Notes under the pieces: model-generated
Seen by the model: only the letters and a program-made list of their open reading frames with translations
Told to the model about the DNA's origin: nothing
The model's database searches: none
Assembly: GCF_029223285.1 (NCBI RefSeq)
Contig: NZ_JARHUJ010000011.1
Location: 186,001-250,000 of the forward strand
Source of the DNA: Paraflavitalea sp. CAU 1676
GTDB lineage: Bacteria > Bacteroidota > Bacteroidia > Chitinophagales > Chitinophagaceae
Length of the DNA stretch: 64,000 nt
Direction: 5' to 3'
Part shown: positions 26,524 to 31,411 of the stretch, in pieces
Numbering within the stretch: the stretch's first letter is position 1
Layout: each line of letters starts with the position of its first letter
Position numbers and translations under genes: made by a program

Positions 26524-27498
26524 TTAATAATTAAAAATGAATTCAGCCAGGTCTATCGGATCCAGGGGGTTCTGCCGTCTGCTCCTGTCGAACTGGTGTT
26601 CGTCGGCCAGCTTCCACTTTTCCAATCTTTCCATTTCCTTCCTTGCCCGGCGCGTTGGTGTACCTTTCGATCTTCGCTGGTACATTTTGCGCAGGTTATT
26701 CATCATGTTCTCCGAGATCGTAAAATAGCTGTATTGATCAAGCCTTACCATCTTTTCGCCCTCTTCCTCTTCAGTGAGGAAGGAAGGCAATTCCTTGTAC
26801 TGATAGCTGGCCAGGGTGACGATAAAATCATTATCGATGAGGCCGATACCCTCATCGCCAATTAAGAACGTATTACTGCTGAAATAATTTTCTGTGTGGA
26901 CATTATCATAGGCCTGATACCGGGCCATATCGGCCGGCGGCTGCGGGGATGGCGCCGGCGTTGCGGGCACCTGGGGCGCGGGGACTTCTTGTACCGGCTG
27001 CTGTTGTGTCGTAGACGTTTCAGTCACAACCGGTTGGCTCCTGTTCAACCGGTATATTCCCCACCCCGCTATGAGCAGCAGGCAGGCCGCCGCTGCGATC
27101 CTGAACCAGAGAAAGGCCTTGCGCTTTCCGCCCACCGTTTCTTCGATCCCTGGTAACAGGCTTTCGTGGGGTGTGGATGGTTCGATCGGTTCCTGATGGA
27201 CAACAGTCGCCGCTTCGCGCAGTATTTGCTCAAAGGCCCCGGCAGGGGGCGCCTGCTCATGCGACTGCAAGCCGGCCAGCATCGGTGTATGTACCGTTGC
27301 CTGCAATATGGCCGCCGGCAGCCAGGCTGGTGGCTGCTGTTCGAACTCTTGTAAAGGCTGCCAGGCACCCAGCCATTGAACGTCAGGATCGGGCGCAGCT
27401 TCCTGCTCCAGCCTCGCCAGCAAGCGCTGGAAGGCGGCAGCCGGGGGCTGTACCTCATAGTCGCGCAGGCGACTTAGTATAGTGATCCTGTTATCCAT
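26524..27498 (-). CDS. Putative anti-sigma-factor-like membrane protein
   Basis: A 324-residue single-pass protein. The cytoplasmic N-terminal 125 residues contain repeats of the type PPAxAFxxIL (YEVQPPAAAFQRLLARL, EQAPPAGAFEQILREA and a weaker QQPPAWLPAAILQ). One transmembrane helix at about 128-147 (FRIAAAACLLLIAGWGIYRL), a Pro/Gln/Thr-rich linker, and a periplasmic C-terminal domain follow. The gene overlaps the ECF sigma gene by 8 bp, and position plus topology suggest it binds that sigma. The zinc-binding HxxxCxxC motif of many anti-sigmas is absent, so this is inference. Confidence 0.65.
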   Translation of the reverse strand: MDNRITILSRLRDYEVQPPAAAFQRLLARLEQEAAPDPDVQWLGAWQPLQEFEQQPPAWLPAAILQATVHTPMLAGLQSHEQAPPAGAFEQILREAATVVHQEPIEPSTPHESLLPGIEETVGGKRKAFLWFRIAAAACLLLIAGWGIYRLNRSQPVVTETSTTQQQPVQEVPAPQVPATPAPSPQPPADMARYQAYDNVHTENYFSSNTFLIGDEGIGLIDNDFIVTLASYQYKELPSFLTEEEEGEKMVRLDQYSYFTISENMMNNLRKMYQRRSKGTPTRRARKEMERLEKWKLADEHQFDRSRRQNPLDPIDLAEFIFNY

Positions 27499-28039
27499 TG
27501 GTTTCCTTGAATAATTTCTGCAGATAAACCCTGGCCCTGAACAATTGCGAACGGCTACCCTCTTCCGATATATCCAGCATTTCTCCGATCTCTTTATGGT
27601 TGTACCCTTCTACGAGGTACAGATTGATGACCGTACGGTAGCCATCGGGCATGGTGCCGATCATCTTCATCAGTTCATCGTTCGTGAGCTTGTCATAGCC
27701 GCTCAGCCCATCAGCAGCCAGTTCTATTTCGTCGCTGATAGCAGTAAGTACTATTTTCTTCTTTTTGATGAAATCAATACAGGTGCCAACAAAGATCCTG
27801 CGGGCCCATCCCTCGAAGGAACCATCGCCCCTGAACCCCGACAGGTGCCTGTAGAGTTTTACGAAACCTTCCTGGAAGCAATCGTTGGCATCATTGGCAT
27901 TGCCGGCATAACGCAGACAGAGGCTGTACATCCGCCCGGCGATATGATCGTAGAGTTGCTGAAAGGCTTTGTTGTCGCCATTAGCAGCTTGTTGGGTTAA
28001 GACCTCAAAATGAGGAGGGGCGTTGCGTACAGGTTCCAT
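27491..28039 (-). CDS. RNA polymerase ECF sigma factor
   Basis: A 182-residue sigma-70 family factor: region 2 (AFQQLYDHIAGRMYSLCLRY; DCFQEGFVKLYRHL; FEGWARRIFVGTCIDF) and region 4 (DGYRTVINLYLVEGYNHKEIGEMLDISEEGSRSQLFRARVYLQKL). It is of the Bacteroidota ECF type. The 8-bp overlap with the membrane protein downstream indicates translational coupling with an anti-sigma. A possible -7 sequence GATATTTG lies about 8 bp before the start. Confidence 0.93.
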   Translation of the reverse strand: MEPVRNAPPHFEVLTQQAANGDNKAFQQLYDHIAGRMYSLCLRYAGNANDANDCFQEGFVKLYRHLSGFRGDGSFEGWARRIFVGTCIDFIKKKKIVLTAISDEIELAADGLSGYDKLTNDELMKMIGTMPDGYRTVINLYLVEGYNHKEIGEMLDISEEGSRSQLFRARVYLQKLFKETNG

Positions 28040-28448: not shown

Positions 28449-28464
28449 CTACATGATAATGTAG
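28449..28464. promoter_or_regulatory. Putative operator, copy 1 (CTACATGATAATGTAG)
   Basis: Perfect 6-bp inverted repeat (CTACAT/ATGTAG) around GATA. Its centre lies 34 bp from the centre of the -7 box at 28487-28494. A second copy with identical spacing is at 29158. Confidence 0.7.
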
Positions 28465-28486
28465 CGGATATCGTATTTTAGGATAC

Positions 28487-28494
28487 TACCTTTA
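28487..28494 (+). promoter_or_regulatory. -7 box of the NarL-type regulator (TACCTTTA)
   Basis: One mismatch to TAnnTTTG; 8 bp before the ATG. A weakened box with an upstream operator is what an activator-dependent promoter would look like. Confidence 0.5.
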
Positions 28495-28502
28495 ACAAGC
28501 TA

Positions 28503-29138
28503 ATGGCAATCAAGATCCTACTATACGACGACAATGAAGCGCTGCGGCAAAGCATGGAAACCCTGCTGAGTGAAGAGCCCGACCTGGAGTTCATGGCCGG
28601 TATTCCCAATGCAGAGACCGTAGAAACAGATGTGCGGCAACTGGAGCCGGATGTGATACTGATGGACATAGATATGCCTGGTGTAAATGGCGTAGAGGCC
28701 GTGCGGCGCATCCGCAAATTTGCCGGCGAGCTGCCCATCATCATGCTGACCGTTTTCGACGACAATGAAAATATCTTCCGCGCCATTTGTGCCGGCGCCA
28801 GTGGTTATATCCTCAAAAGATACGCTTCGCTCGAAGTGCCCGCAGCCGTACGCAATGTACTGTCGGGCGGCGCTCCCATGACGGGTACAGTAGCCCGCAA
28901 AGTATTGTTGATGATCCCTCCGGCCCACAATCCCGACCAGGAAAAGACCGACCTTTCCGAAAAAGAGATCAGCATCCTGCAACTGCTGGTACAGGGTTTC
29001 AGCTACAAGATGATCGCTGCCCAGCTAAAGATCAGCCACGATACGGTGCGCTTCTACATCAAAAAGATCTACGACAAACTTCATGTACATTCCGCTACCG
29101 AAGCGGTTTCCAAAGCCATTAAAGACGGACTGGTATAA
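28503..29138 (+). CDS. Orphan NarL/LuxR-type response regulator
   Basis: A 211-residue regulator: receiver with acidic pair D9-D10, phospho-acceptor D55 (VILMDIDMPG), T83 (MLTVFDDNE) and K105 (YILKRYA); then a LuxR/GerE helix-turn-helix at about 145-205 (LSEKEISILQLLVQGFSYKMIAAQL ... DTVRFYIKKIYDKL). No histidine kinase is adjacent. The same inverted repeat stands before this gene and before the next, so it is probably autoregulatory and controls the secreted-protein pair at 29223-31411. Confidence 0.93.
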   Translation: MAIKILLYDDNEALRQSMETLLSEEPDLEFMAGIPNAETVETDVRQLEPDVILMDIDMPGVNGVEAVRRIRKFAGELPIIMLTVFDDNENIFRAICAGASGYILKRYASLEVPAAVRNVLSGGAPMTGTVARKVLLMIPPAHNPDQEKTDLSEKEISILQLLVQGFSYKMIAAQLKISHDTVRFYIKKIYDKLHVHSATEAVSKAIKDGLV

Positions 29139-29155
29139 AAAGCTACAACGCTTTC

Positions 29156-29175
29156 CACTACATGATGATGTAGTG
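29156..29175. promoter_or_regulatory. Putative operator, copy 2 (CTACATGATGATGTAG)
   Basis: An 8-bp inverted repeat (CACTACAT/ATGTAGTG) with the same GAT core as the copy at 28449. Its centre is again 34 bp from the centre of the downstream -7 box, i.e. close to -41 from the predicted start of transcription. Confidence 0.75.
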
Positions 29176-29195
29176 TATGCCTTGATGGTACTGTT

Positions 29196-29203
29196 TAGTT
29201 TTG
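29196..29203 (+). promoter_or_regulatory. -7 box (TAGTTTTG) of the VGIG secreted-protein operon
   Basis: Exact TAnnTTTG match 19 bp before the ATG at 29223 and 34 bp (centre to centre) from operator copy 2. Confidence 0.65.
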
Positions 29204-29222: not shown

Positions 29223-29867
29223 ATGAAACAACTATCCATCCTGCTGCTATTAGTAATCTCTTTTACCACCCATGCTCAAAATGTCGGCATCGGCGTACCC
29301 GCGCCCCTCTATAAACTCGACGTGTACAGTCCCGTTGGCCCGGTGGCGCGATTCACCGGCTCTTCGGCCATGTACATGACCCTGTACGAAAGCAATTTTT
29401 ACCGGGGCTATTTAGGCTCCTGGGCGGGGTCGGCCGAGGATGTAGACTTTGGTACCGGTGGCGGCAATACTACCGGCAGCGTTCACCTTACAATACAAGG
29501 TATTCCCAAGCTTTCCGTTACTGCCAGTGGTTCCGTCGATGTGCAGAACGAACTCACCCGCAGCTCCAAAACAGGCAACGCCAACCTTTTGCCGATCGCC
29601 TATGGCAATATCAGCGCTGCAGGCTTCGTCCAGGCTAGTAGCGGCAATGTTTCGGTGAGCCACACTATTACCGGCTTTTATGACATCACGATCACCGGCG
29701 AAAACTACCAGTTTCAACAATACATTACCGTGGTGACGCCCATCGGCAGCACTACACCCGTTATATCCACCACTGGCAGTGGTGCCGGCAGGCTGCAGGT
29801 ATTCCTGTATAGCATAACTGGTGCTGATATCGATGGCAATTTTCATTTCGTGATCTATAAACCATAA
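29223..29867 (+). CDS. Secreted 'VGIG...KLDV' protein (tail-fibre-like)
   Basis: A 214-residue protein with signal peptide MKQLSILLLLVISFTTHAQ. The mature N-terminus NVGIGVPAPLYKLDVYSP is the hallmark of a group of Bacteroidota secreted, often tail-fibre- or adhesin-like proteins (consensus VGIGTTNPTxKLDV). Gly/Thr/Ser-rich beta structure follows, and the protein ends in a compact IYKP. Function is not known; a surface or extracellular filament role is inference. It is 6 bp from the next gene, so the two are one operon. Confidence 0.75.
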   Translation: MKQLSILLLLVISFTTHAQNVGIGVPAPLYKLDVYSPVGPVARFTGSSAMYMTLYESNFYRGYLGSWAGSAEDVDFGTGGGNTTGSVHLTIQGIPKLSVTASGSVDVQNELTRSSKTGNANLLPIAYGNISAAGFVQASSGNVSVSHTITGFYDITITGENYQFQQYITVVTPIGSTTPVISTTGSGAGRLQVFLYSITGADIDGNFHFVIYKP

Positions 29868-29872
29868 CTCCA

Positions 29873-31411
29873 ATGCCATCCACTTTGAGAAAATTATTCT
29901 TTGCGGTACTGCCGGCAGTTAGCTGCTGCTTACCAGCCATGACGCAGGTGTATGTGCAATCCGGGGCCGATATTCGCATTCAATCAGGCGTTGAATTTGT
30001 TGTTCAGGGAGATATCAGTCTTGAGGCAGGCAGCGTATTGATCAACGCCGGCACGATCCTGCTGGGCAATAGTGCGGGGTATAGCGCCAACTTCACCGAC
30101 CAAACCATTACTCCCTACCAATATGGTACCGGGAGGATCGTCTTCAACAGTAGCATGCCACAAACGATCCAAACGCTGAATGTTTTCGGAAGCCTGGAAA
30201 TGAGCGGATATGACCTGCAATTCGCGAGTTCGGTATCTGCCCTCAAGTGGTACCTCAACCAGGGCAGGATCCGCACGCTCACGCACTCCGCTGTAGTGAC
30301 CGGTATGGATGAGCTGGCAATCGAAGCATCTCCTTCGAATGTTAATTATAGCCAATGCTGGATCAATGGCAGTATAAGGCGTTTCATTAACCCGGCATTG
30401 ACCAATAAATACACATTTCCCCTGGGGCTTTCTTCTGGCGTGTATCTCGCCGAAATGGACAACCTGATGGCCAATCCACTCAACAACATCAGCTATATCG
30501 ACGCATCTTTTCAACCCAAACTGGGTACCGATGCGGGACTGGTTGTAACCGAAGCAGGCGCCTCCTATACCGGCATTCATAACGCAGGCATCTGGCACCT
30601 GAGCCCGAATGGAACACCCACTACCGGCCAATACGACCTGCGTGTATACATAAATGGCTTTACAGGCTTAAGCGACAACCTGTTCACCATCCTGCGCAGA
30701 CCCGAAGCCTCTTCCAATGGCGCCGACTGGTCGGTGCCAACCGGTAGTCATGTAAATGCTACTGGAGGATTGGGCCGGCTCGTAGCACATGGCTATGCAC
30801 AACGCAACAAGCTGAGTACCTTCAGCGAATTCGGCATTGGCCTGCTGGCAACGACCTTACCGGTGAGCCTGACGCAGTTTAACCTGAAGCGCCATACTGA
30901 CACGCAGGTATTGGTGGGATGGCAAACCCAAACGGAGCACAATAATCAGGGCTTTTACGTTGAAAGAAGGCTGGACACAGAAACGGACTTCACCAATAAA
31001 GGATTTGTTGCCTCCAAAGCAGCTAATGGTAACAGTGTGATGCCCATCGACTATTCCTTCACCGACAACAACAACTATCCTGGCATCGCCTATTACCGGC
31101 TGAAACAGGTAGACCTCGATGATCGTGCTTATTATTCCATGATCAAAGCGATCAAAGGCGGCGCCGGTGTGAACGTATTGATATGGCCCAACCCCAGCGA
31201 AGGACAGTTTAGCATTCGCCTGGAGGGCATCAACGACCCTAAAGAAGCCCTTATTACCGACCTGAGCGGTAAGCTTGTTCAAAAGTTTAGCATCAGAGGC
31301 ACACAAGCGGTAAACATTCATAACCTGCCGGCCGGCACCTATGTCCTTACAATTCCCCATGCGTTTGGAATGGGCCAGGCATTTAAGGAAAAAGTAATGG
31401 TAGTGCGGTAG
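29873..31411 (+). CDS. T9SS-secreted protein with C-terminal sorting domain
   Basis: A 512-residue protein: signal peptide (MPSTLRKLFFAVLPAVSCCLP), a beta-helix-like N-terminal region (VQSGADIRIQSGVEFVVQGDISLEAGSVLINAG), a middle domain, then a type-A T9SS sorting domain from about 440 (IWPNPSEGQFSIRLEG ... NLPAGTYVLTI). It should be exported by PorKLMN/SprA machinery and attached to or released from the surface. The function of the middle part is unrecognised. It is the second gene of the operon under operator copy 2; the CDF transporter follows after 9 bp. Confidence 0.85.
   Translation: MPSTLRKLFFAVLPAVSCCLPAMTQVYVQSGADIRIQSGVEFVVQGDISLEAGSVLINAGTILLGNSAGYSANFTDQTITPYQYGTGRIVFNSSMPQTIQTLNVFGSLEMSGYDLQFASSVSALKWYLNQGRIRTLTHSAVVTGMDELAIEASPSNVNYSQCWINGSIRRFINPALTNKYTFPLGLSSGVYLAEMDNLMANPLNNISYIDASFQPKLGTDAGLVVTEAGASYTGIHNAGIWHLSPNGTPTTGQYDLRVYINGFTGLSDNLFTILRRPEASSNGADWSVPTGSHVNATGGLGRLVAHGYAQRNKLSTFSEFGIGLLATTLPVSLTQFNLKRHTDTQVLVGWQTQTEHNNQGFYVERRLDTETDFTNKGFVASKAANGNSVMPIDYSFTDNNNYPGIAYYRLKQVDLDDRAYYSMIKAIKGGAGVNVLIWPNPSEGQFSIRLEGINDPKEALITDLSGKLVQKFSIRGTQAVNIHNLPAGTYVLTIPHAFGMGQAFKEKVMVVR

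Follow-up and report, generated by a model that had tools for sequence, protein, structure and literature searches.

A conserved pair of probable operators around a NarL-type response regulator gene in Paraflavitalea and other Chitinophagaceae

Results and discussion

A palindrome, CTACATnATnATGTAG, occurs twice in the window (the whole 64,000-nucleotide stretch of DNA from Paraflavitalea sp. CAU 1676 that was analysed), in copies 709 bp apart, once before the gene of a NarL-type response regulator and once before two genes for presumably secreted proteins. Judged by comparison with related sequences, this appears to be a real, conserved operator pair of a regulator of a known kind, and both palindromes are very probably binding sites of that regulator itself. 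The preferred reading, which we regard as probable, is that of an autoregulated NarL-type class II activator which uses both palindromes as its sites, serves a small envelope regulon and has its kinase encoded elsewhere. The overlap of the operator with a stop codon in relatives is apparently unusual, and the parting of sensor and regulator seems traceable. To our knowledge, few DNA targets are known for NarL-type regulators in Bacteroidota. The following features of the window are referred to below:

26524-27498, minus strand: 324-aa protein with no match in Pfam, in the upstream position that the kinase has in relatives
27491-28039, minus strand: ECF sigma factor, likewise upstream where relatives keep the kinase
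28449-28464, plus strand: putative operator 1, CTACATGATAATGTAG, before the regulator gene; bases 6-8 correspond to the kinase stop codon in relatives
28487-28494, plus strand: the regulator promoter's -7 box, TACCTTTA, at 22 bp from the end of operator 1
28503-29138, plus strand: NarL/FixJ-type response regulator of 211 aa, receiver and GerE helix-turn-helix (HTH) domains, with the stretch DTVRFYIKKIYDKL
29158-29173, plus strand: putative operator 2, CTACATGATGATGTAG, before the secreted-protein genes
29196-29203, plus strand: the target promoter's -7 box, TAGTTTTG, at 22 bp from the end of operator 2
29223-29867, plus strand: target gene 1, 214-aa protein with a signal-peptide-like start (by eye), lacking a Pfam match; its place and order are shared by G002, G003 and G004
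29873-31411, plus strand: target gene 2, 512-aa protein with a Por_Secre_tail (type IX secretion sorting domain, PF18962, above cut-off); same place in G002 to G004

Promoter geometry and relation to known regulators

Both 16-mers lie where the initial annotation had placed them (28449-28464 and 29158-29173), and at each of them exactly 22 bp separate the end of the operator from a -7 box of the form TAnnTTTR, so that the centre of the repeat is, as had been claimed, 34 bp upstream of the centre of the box. That the window holds no other copy could also be confirmed, since a scan allowing up to two mismatches returned just these two matches against 0.13 expected, and none of 100 shuffles gave two. 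The annotation had further put the site near -41, the class II position. Here the class II geometry is retained but the exact value is not: as the sigma-A -7 box of a flavobacterium spans -12 to -5 (PMC9723704), the operator centre would fall at about -42.5 with the 22-bp spacing, and at about -43.5 with a spacing of 23 bp, relative to the predicted start. Both values agree with the geometry of class II promoters, in which the operator centre lies near -41.5 or -42.5 in a fixed phase.

With a receiver domain (PF00072, 82.4 bits) and a GerE HTH domain (PF00196, 63.6 bits), both above cut-off, the regulator has the domain layout of the NarL/FixJ class. Its nearest solved relatives by sequence are VraR, NarL, DevR, ChrA and DesR; VraR, NarL, DevR/DosR and DesR likewise combine a receiver with a GerE HTH and match over nearly the full length. 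A palindromic site and, in relatives of the window's regulator, a HisKA_3-type kinase next door are also shared with NarL/FixJ systems, whereas the promoter with which the regulator would work is the TAnnTTTG promoter of Bacteroidota. The palindrome is consistent with phosphorylation-dependent binding of a dimer. The NarL site is a pair of TACYYMT heptamers in a 7-2-7 arrangement spanning 16 bp; as the half-site here is CTACAT and the span from TAC to GTA is 14 bp, the regulator was not filed as NarL itself. The lux box is an inverted repeat centred near -42.5 as well and shares the class II geometry, but it is 20 bp long and of another sequence, and LuxR binds a ligand and lacks a receiver domain. 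Two-component control tied to type IX secretion in Bacteroidota is also represented by PorY-PorX-SigP of Porphyromonas; PorX is a response regulator of another type than the NarL-type. The motif was not found in the literature searched, with most subscription papers outside its reach, and among the papers listed on Bacteroidetes LuxR-type regulators, Chitinophagaceae LuxR/OmpA, TAnnTTTG promoters with response regulators, NarL class II sites and TPR-HisKA3 systems none deals with this system, judged by the start of its abstract.

Distribution of the palindrome in the genome and in relatives

In the window's genome (G000; 8.84 Mb in 23 contigs), CTACATnATnATGTAG occurs three times exactly, versus no match of the reversed control pattern, so that a random genome-wide occurrence, which the annotation had named as a possible refutation, does not apply. 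The third site (G000:C12:216964) precedes an OmpA-family gene and has its -7 box, TAGGTTTG, again at a distance of 22 bp. The pair in the window is hence not the complete set of putative operators, as at least this one unlinked site exists. Weaker matches were not accepted as extra regulon members: with up to two mismatches the genome-wide count is at background (22 versus 43 in the control), and the genome's two one-mismatch sites were not counted because no -7 box at the spacing could be seen by eye. A scan for the composite of operator and promoter in five genomes, with up to three mismatches, gave 27 matches versus six in all for the control. Fourteen of them have three mismatches, and four of these are palindromes already counted, in the opposite reading; the ten left were rejected in view of the six control matches.

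Orthologues of the regulator (E <= 1e-70) are present in 19 of 394 Chitinophagaceae genomes, and 18 of the loci have readable upstream DNA, the locus of G067 (L119) starting at a contig end. Conservation before orthologous regulators was found throughout, as all 18 carry the palindrome upstream of the regulator with at most one mismatch (11 exact, seven with one). Its first base lies 49-75 bp before the start codon, except for one at 180 bp. No such palindrome precedes the gene of a regulator paralogue in G002 with 57% identity. For the downstream copy the best match in the stretch 560-1400 bp past the regulator's start codon was taken; it has at most one mismatch in 15 of 19 loci and three or fewer in 18 of 19. 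Only L114 falls outside this limit, and in its genome, G118, an exact site lies about 3 kb downstream. A TAnnTTT box, with a background frequency of 0.0015 per base (seven loci, both strands), follows at 22 or 23 bp in 13/18 upstream and 16/18 downstream sites. It is absent at 21-23 bp from four upstream sites (L110, L112, L116, L118) and from two of the 18 downstream sites (L110, L118). In G000, G002, G003 and G004 each of the 11 exact palindromes is followed by the box after 22 or 23 bp, G001 has a palindrome with one mismatch, and among the other 35 relatives scanned there is one exact palindrome (G005), without the box.

The exact operator-promoter composite was found in 12 of the 394 family genomes, namely in 11 of the 19 with the regulator versus one of the 375 others, for which the Fisher value of 1.2e-15 is indicative only because the genomes share ancestry and are not independent. 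Indeed, much of the conservation is that of one inherited locus. The one composite-bearing genome without an orthologue is G077, where the site precedes another NarL-type regulator, with a TVRFY helix. Among GTDB contigs, 27 stretches contain the composite (34 matches), of which 23 are titled Bacteroidota and four are titled as other phyla, perhaps by chance or through misplaced contigs. A full-length homologue of the regulator is contained in 14 of the 27. Carriers include Niastella, Longitalea and Ferruginibacter, as well as Lutibacter and Saprospiraceae with more distant regulators. In Lutibacter and relatives (L094, L098, L100, L101, L106) the palindrome is separated from a TAnnTTT box by 23 bp; on one side of it is a conserved small protein and on the other a putative divergent kinase-like frame, which in L094, L098 and L106 is followed by a TVR[FY]H regulator.

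Predicted regulon

The Por_Secre_tail domain is also found in the G003 copy of target gene 2. Orthologues of the OmpA-family protein of G000:C12 with at least 63% identity are present in seven of the ten genomes searched. The gene is unlinked in G000 and G003, with an exact site in each, and an exact site also precedes the orthologue of G144. In G120 and G001 the orthologue is next to the regulator, with sites of two and three mismatches, respectively, whereas no site lies directly before the orthologues of G242 and G391, though they are situated just after the regulator region. G002, G004 and G180 have OmpA homologues with 39-41% identity only. In G003 and G004 further exact sites lie before a protein that matches collagen weakly (below cut-off) and before two NHL-repeat proteins (above cut-off), one of which also has a TIG domain; a two-mismatch site in G004 precedes a protein without Pfam match. 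Judged by their starts, the proteins of this putative regulon all look exported.

Kinase genes and the stop codon overlap

The common layout in relatives is kinase, operator, regulator, operator and envelope gene. In 14 of 19 genomes the kinase frame runs directly into operator 1, and in 13 of these 14 readable pairs the TGA stop codon of the kinase coincides with operator bases 6-8, which is why the kinases end in -xT. The fourteenth (G391) reads the operator in another frame, with its last three bases as the stop. Three further loci from GTDB (L084, L104, L095) share this layout, and there too the stop occupies bases 6-8; in two loci with other long upstream frames (L247, L099) it precedes the operator by 5-9 bases. 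Both copies of the module kinase that were scanned have the architecture TPR-HisKA_3-HATPase, and the kinase of G118 is split over two frames in its record. In the gene cluster 3' of the regulator, Ferruginibacter and Niastella populi encode a protein of the thiol-activated cytolysin family (PF01289; L104:3752-5527, L085:4784-6508), near OmpA-like, CARDB or DUF3108-like proteins.

A HisKA_3-type kinase as genomic partner thus stands beside the operator in 14 of 19 genomes and elsewhere in G000, G002, G003 and G004; G067 could not be read in this respect because of its contig ends. In the four, the place upstream of the regulator is taken by an ECF sigma factor together with a protein of about 300 aa, and the operator has been kept. 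The flanks of the kinase-less locus, which we take to be genes for an LptG-like permease and an M20-like peptidase, also lie beside kinase-keeping copies of the module in Ferruginibacter, judged by the printed protein starts. Each of the four genomes has a full-length kinase of the module type elsewhere (in G000 at G000:C7:89496-91706, corresponding to L154:4497-6710) in the same surroundings, preceded by two genes that are presumably gapA and pgk; no response regulator was seen beside these kinases. G002 has one more such kinase, which adjoins the 57%-identical regulator paralogue. In a quick tree (SH-aLRT 88) the unlinked kinases fall together with the kinases of G180 (57% identity) and G187 (47%), both of which sit directly before their regulators. 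The regulator, which had been called an orphan, is therefore one by position but not overall. The ends of the unlinked kinases (EPTEL, QFV, PSLL, FEPA) do not show the -xT.

G001, the fifth member of the genus, keeps a pair. As both members of that pair fall together with their counterparts in G120 and G242, the simplest story would be a split in the ancestor of G000, G002, G003 and G004. G226 and G242 have a second such kinase, respectively without a regulator found in the stretch and beside a 42%-identical regulator; a duplication of the kinase that preceded its loss from the locus is therefore also possible. In G003 and G004 a short sigma-factor-like frame (by eye; L165:8823-9266, L166:10904-11332) ends just before operator 1; such a frame was not seen in the window or in G002.

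Mode of control

In the proposed mechanism a dimer of the regulator, presumably phosphorylated, would occupy CTACATnATnATGTAG centred at about -42.5 or -43.5, with its downstream half next to the -33 region, and would recruit RNA polymerase with sigma-A as a class II activator does. Positive autoregulation would then result from site 1, site 2 would switch on the secreted-protein genes (29223-31411) and the unlinked site would do the same for the OmpA-family gene of G000:C12. The signal would most likely come from the TPR-HisKA_3 kinase that lies upstream in relatives and in the window's genome on contig C7. Conservation strongly supports what had been proposed on the palindrome as operator, on autoregulation and on control of 29223-31411, and it argues strongly for binding by the regulator, whereas the positive sign of control is deduced from geometry. 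The dimer, its phosphorylation, the transcription starts and the partnership with the kinase are presumed.

A TTG follows flush after three of the 18 upstream and 12 of the 18 downstream sites, and the low number at the former looks as if the regulator promoter needed help. Class II activation and positive autoregulation are indicated by several features together, namely the fixed phase, the place beside -33, the 15 upstream sites without TTG and the presence of a copy before both regulator and cargo. How much a -33 TTG counts in this phylum is uncertain (PMC7366714), which weakens the TTG argument, and a very small share of our confidence was moved from activation to repression. Indeed, a protein bound at -42 could repress too. 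The same regulator on the same operators would then block sigma region 4 near -33, regulate its own gene negatively and keep the secreted-protein genes repressed until a signal arrives. The operator abuts the -33 position, and those downstream promoters that have the flush TTG might work without an activator; the lack of it at most upstream sites, with the uncertainty just named, speaks against this, as does the spacing of 22 or 23 bp. A fixed phase of that sort is a habit of class II activators, and we regard repression as rather unlikely.

Apart from the sign of control, the palindromes might serve another regulator, for example another NarL-type regulator of this genome, and the present gene might be a mere target. 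Candidates exist, as about two dozen NarL-type regulators were counted in the genome by inspection, but the site precedes the orthologues of the window's regulator in 18 of 18 readable loci and not the 57% paralogue, no exact or one-mismatch site lies near the remaining regulators of the genome, some of these have different conserved palindromes of their own, and the composite co-occurs with the window's regulator, which makes this explanation quite improbable. Still less credit is given to an RNA or DNA structure (terminator, attenuator or remnant of a mobile element): the two copies are nearly identical, and in relatives operator 1 coincides with the 3' end of the kinase gene, a conceivable place for a terminator. 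Yet by eye a T-run was not seen directly after either copy, the short stem is A+T-rich, and copies keep a fixed phase to the -7 box, with boxes after the unlinked ones too. A chance likeness of two promoters, for which nothing but the shortness of the motif speaks, is hardly credible given 0.13 matches expected in the window, no control match genome-wide, 18/18 conservation and the composite in 11/19 versus 1/375 genomes.

Related modules and the recognition helix

In this case regulator, operator, promoter geometry, probable kinase and regulon have all been proposed from sequence alone. The stop codon overlap together with the unlinking would be a clean case of regulatory rewiring, in which the pair came apart and the operator and at least one target site were kept. 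A rule for finding operators in the family is also suggested, namely to search where the kinase gene ends, at a distance of 22-23 bp ahead of TAnnTTTG.

A broader reading, to which we give as much credence as doubt, is that Chitinophagaceae have sensor-regulator-cargo modules with the operator inside the last codons and the stop of the sensor gene, so that sensor end, operator and recognition helix would coevolve. Within the clade of these modules F in TVR-F-H would pair with CTACAT, and S with an ACAT-ATGT core and other flanks; paralogous modules would have other palindromes at a similar promoter place, at least one of them doubled before regulator and cargo; and when the sensor leaves, the operator would stay and the sensor end would drift. 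If this is true, such modules would offer a natural series in which to read the DNA recognition code of NarL-type regulators and to follow a regulon that survives the loss of linkage.

Four other NarL-type families were read in G000 to G004, one of them also in three more genomes. In the family of L203 and L232-L238 (G000:C1:999996) the palindrome CTACCACAAAGTGGTAT occurs before the regulator and again downstream, where it lies about 22 bp before a TACCTTTG box in G000 to G004. The TVRSHI regulators L199 and L228-L231 (G000:C20:429270) are preceded by ACATAATTATGTGATTG (GGTTG in G000), and in this family, by eye, the palindrome contains the TAA stop of the frame upstream. Two further families have conserved but less clear repeats. 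That paralogous families have palindromes of their own suggests that the layout may be older than the window's system. We do not extend this layout to every NarL-type regulator of the genome, as a clear own palindrome was seen by eye in only a few of 24.

The pairing of F at TVR-F-H with CTACAT held in 19/19 cases versus 0/30 others, in a set partly chosen by the motif. A second set of 30 loci, chosen by HTH similarity, had 27 usable ones (L280, L289 and L292 were left out), of which eight have the F-type helix. Two of these, L268 and L269, already known, have an exact site, L285 has a site with two mismatches before the gene and one with one mismatch after it, and L276 has the variant CTGCAT..ATGCAG with three mismatches. 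No CTACAT site is near the remaining four, L286, L294, L295 and L296 (TV[RK]FH, outside the class), with at least three mismatches on either side, so that the site cannot be predicted from the helix residue alone. The rule was consequently dropped for the phylum and kept for the Chitinophagaceae clade only. The S-type regulator L274 has a site with two mismatches. Two TVRSHI regulators, L270 and L283, have ACATAATTATGTGATTG-like palindromes before them too.
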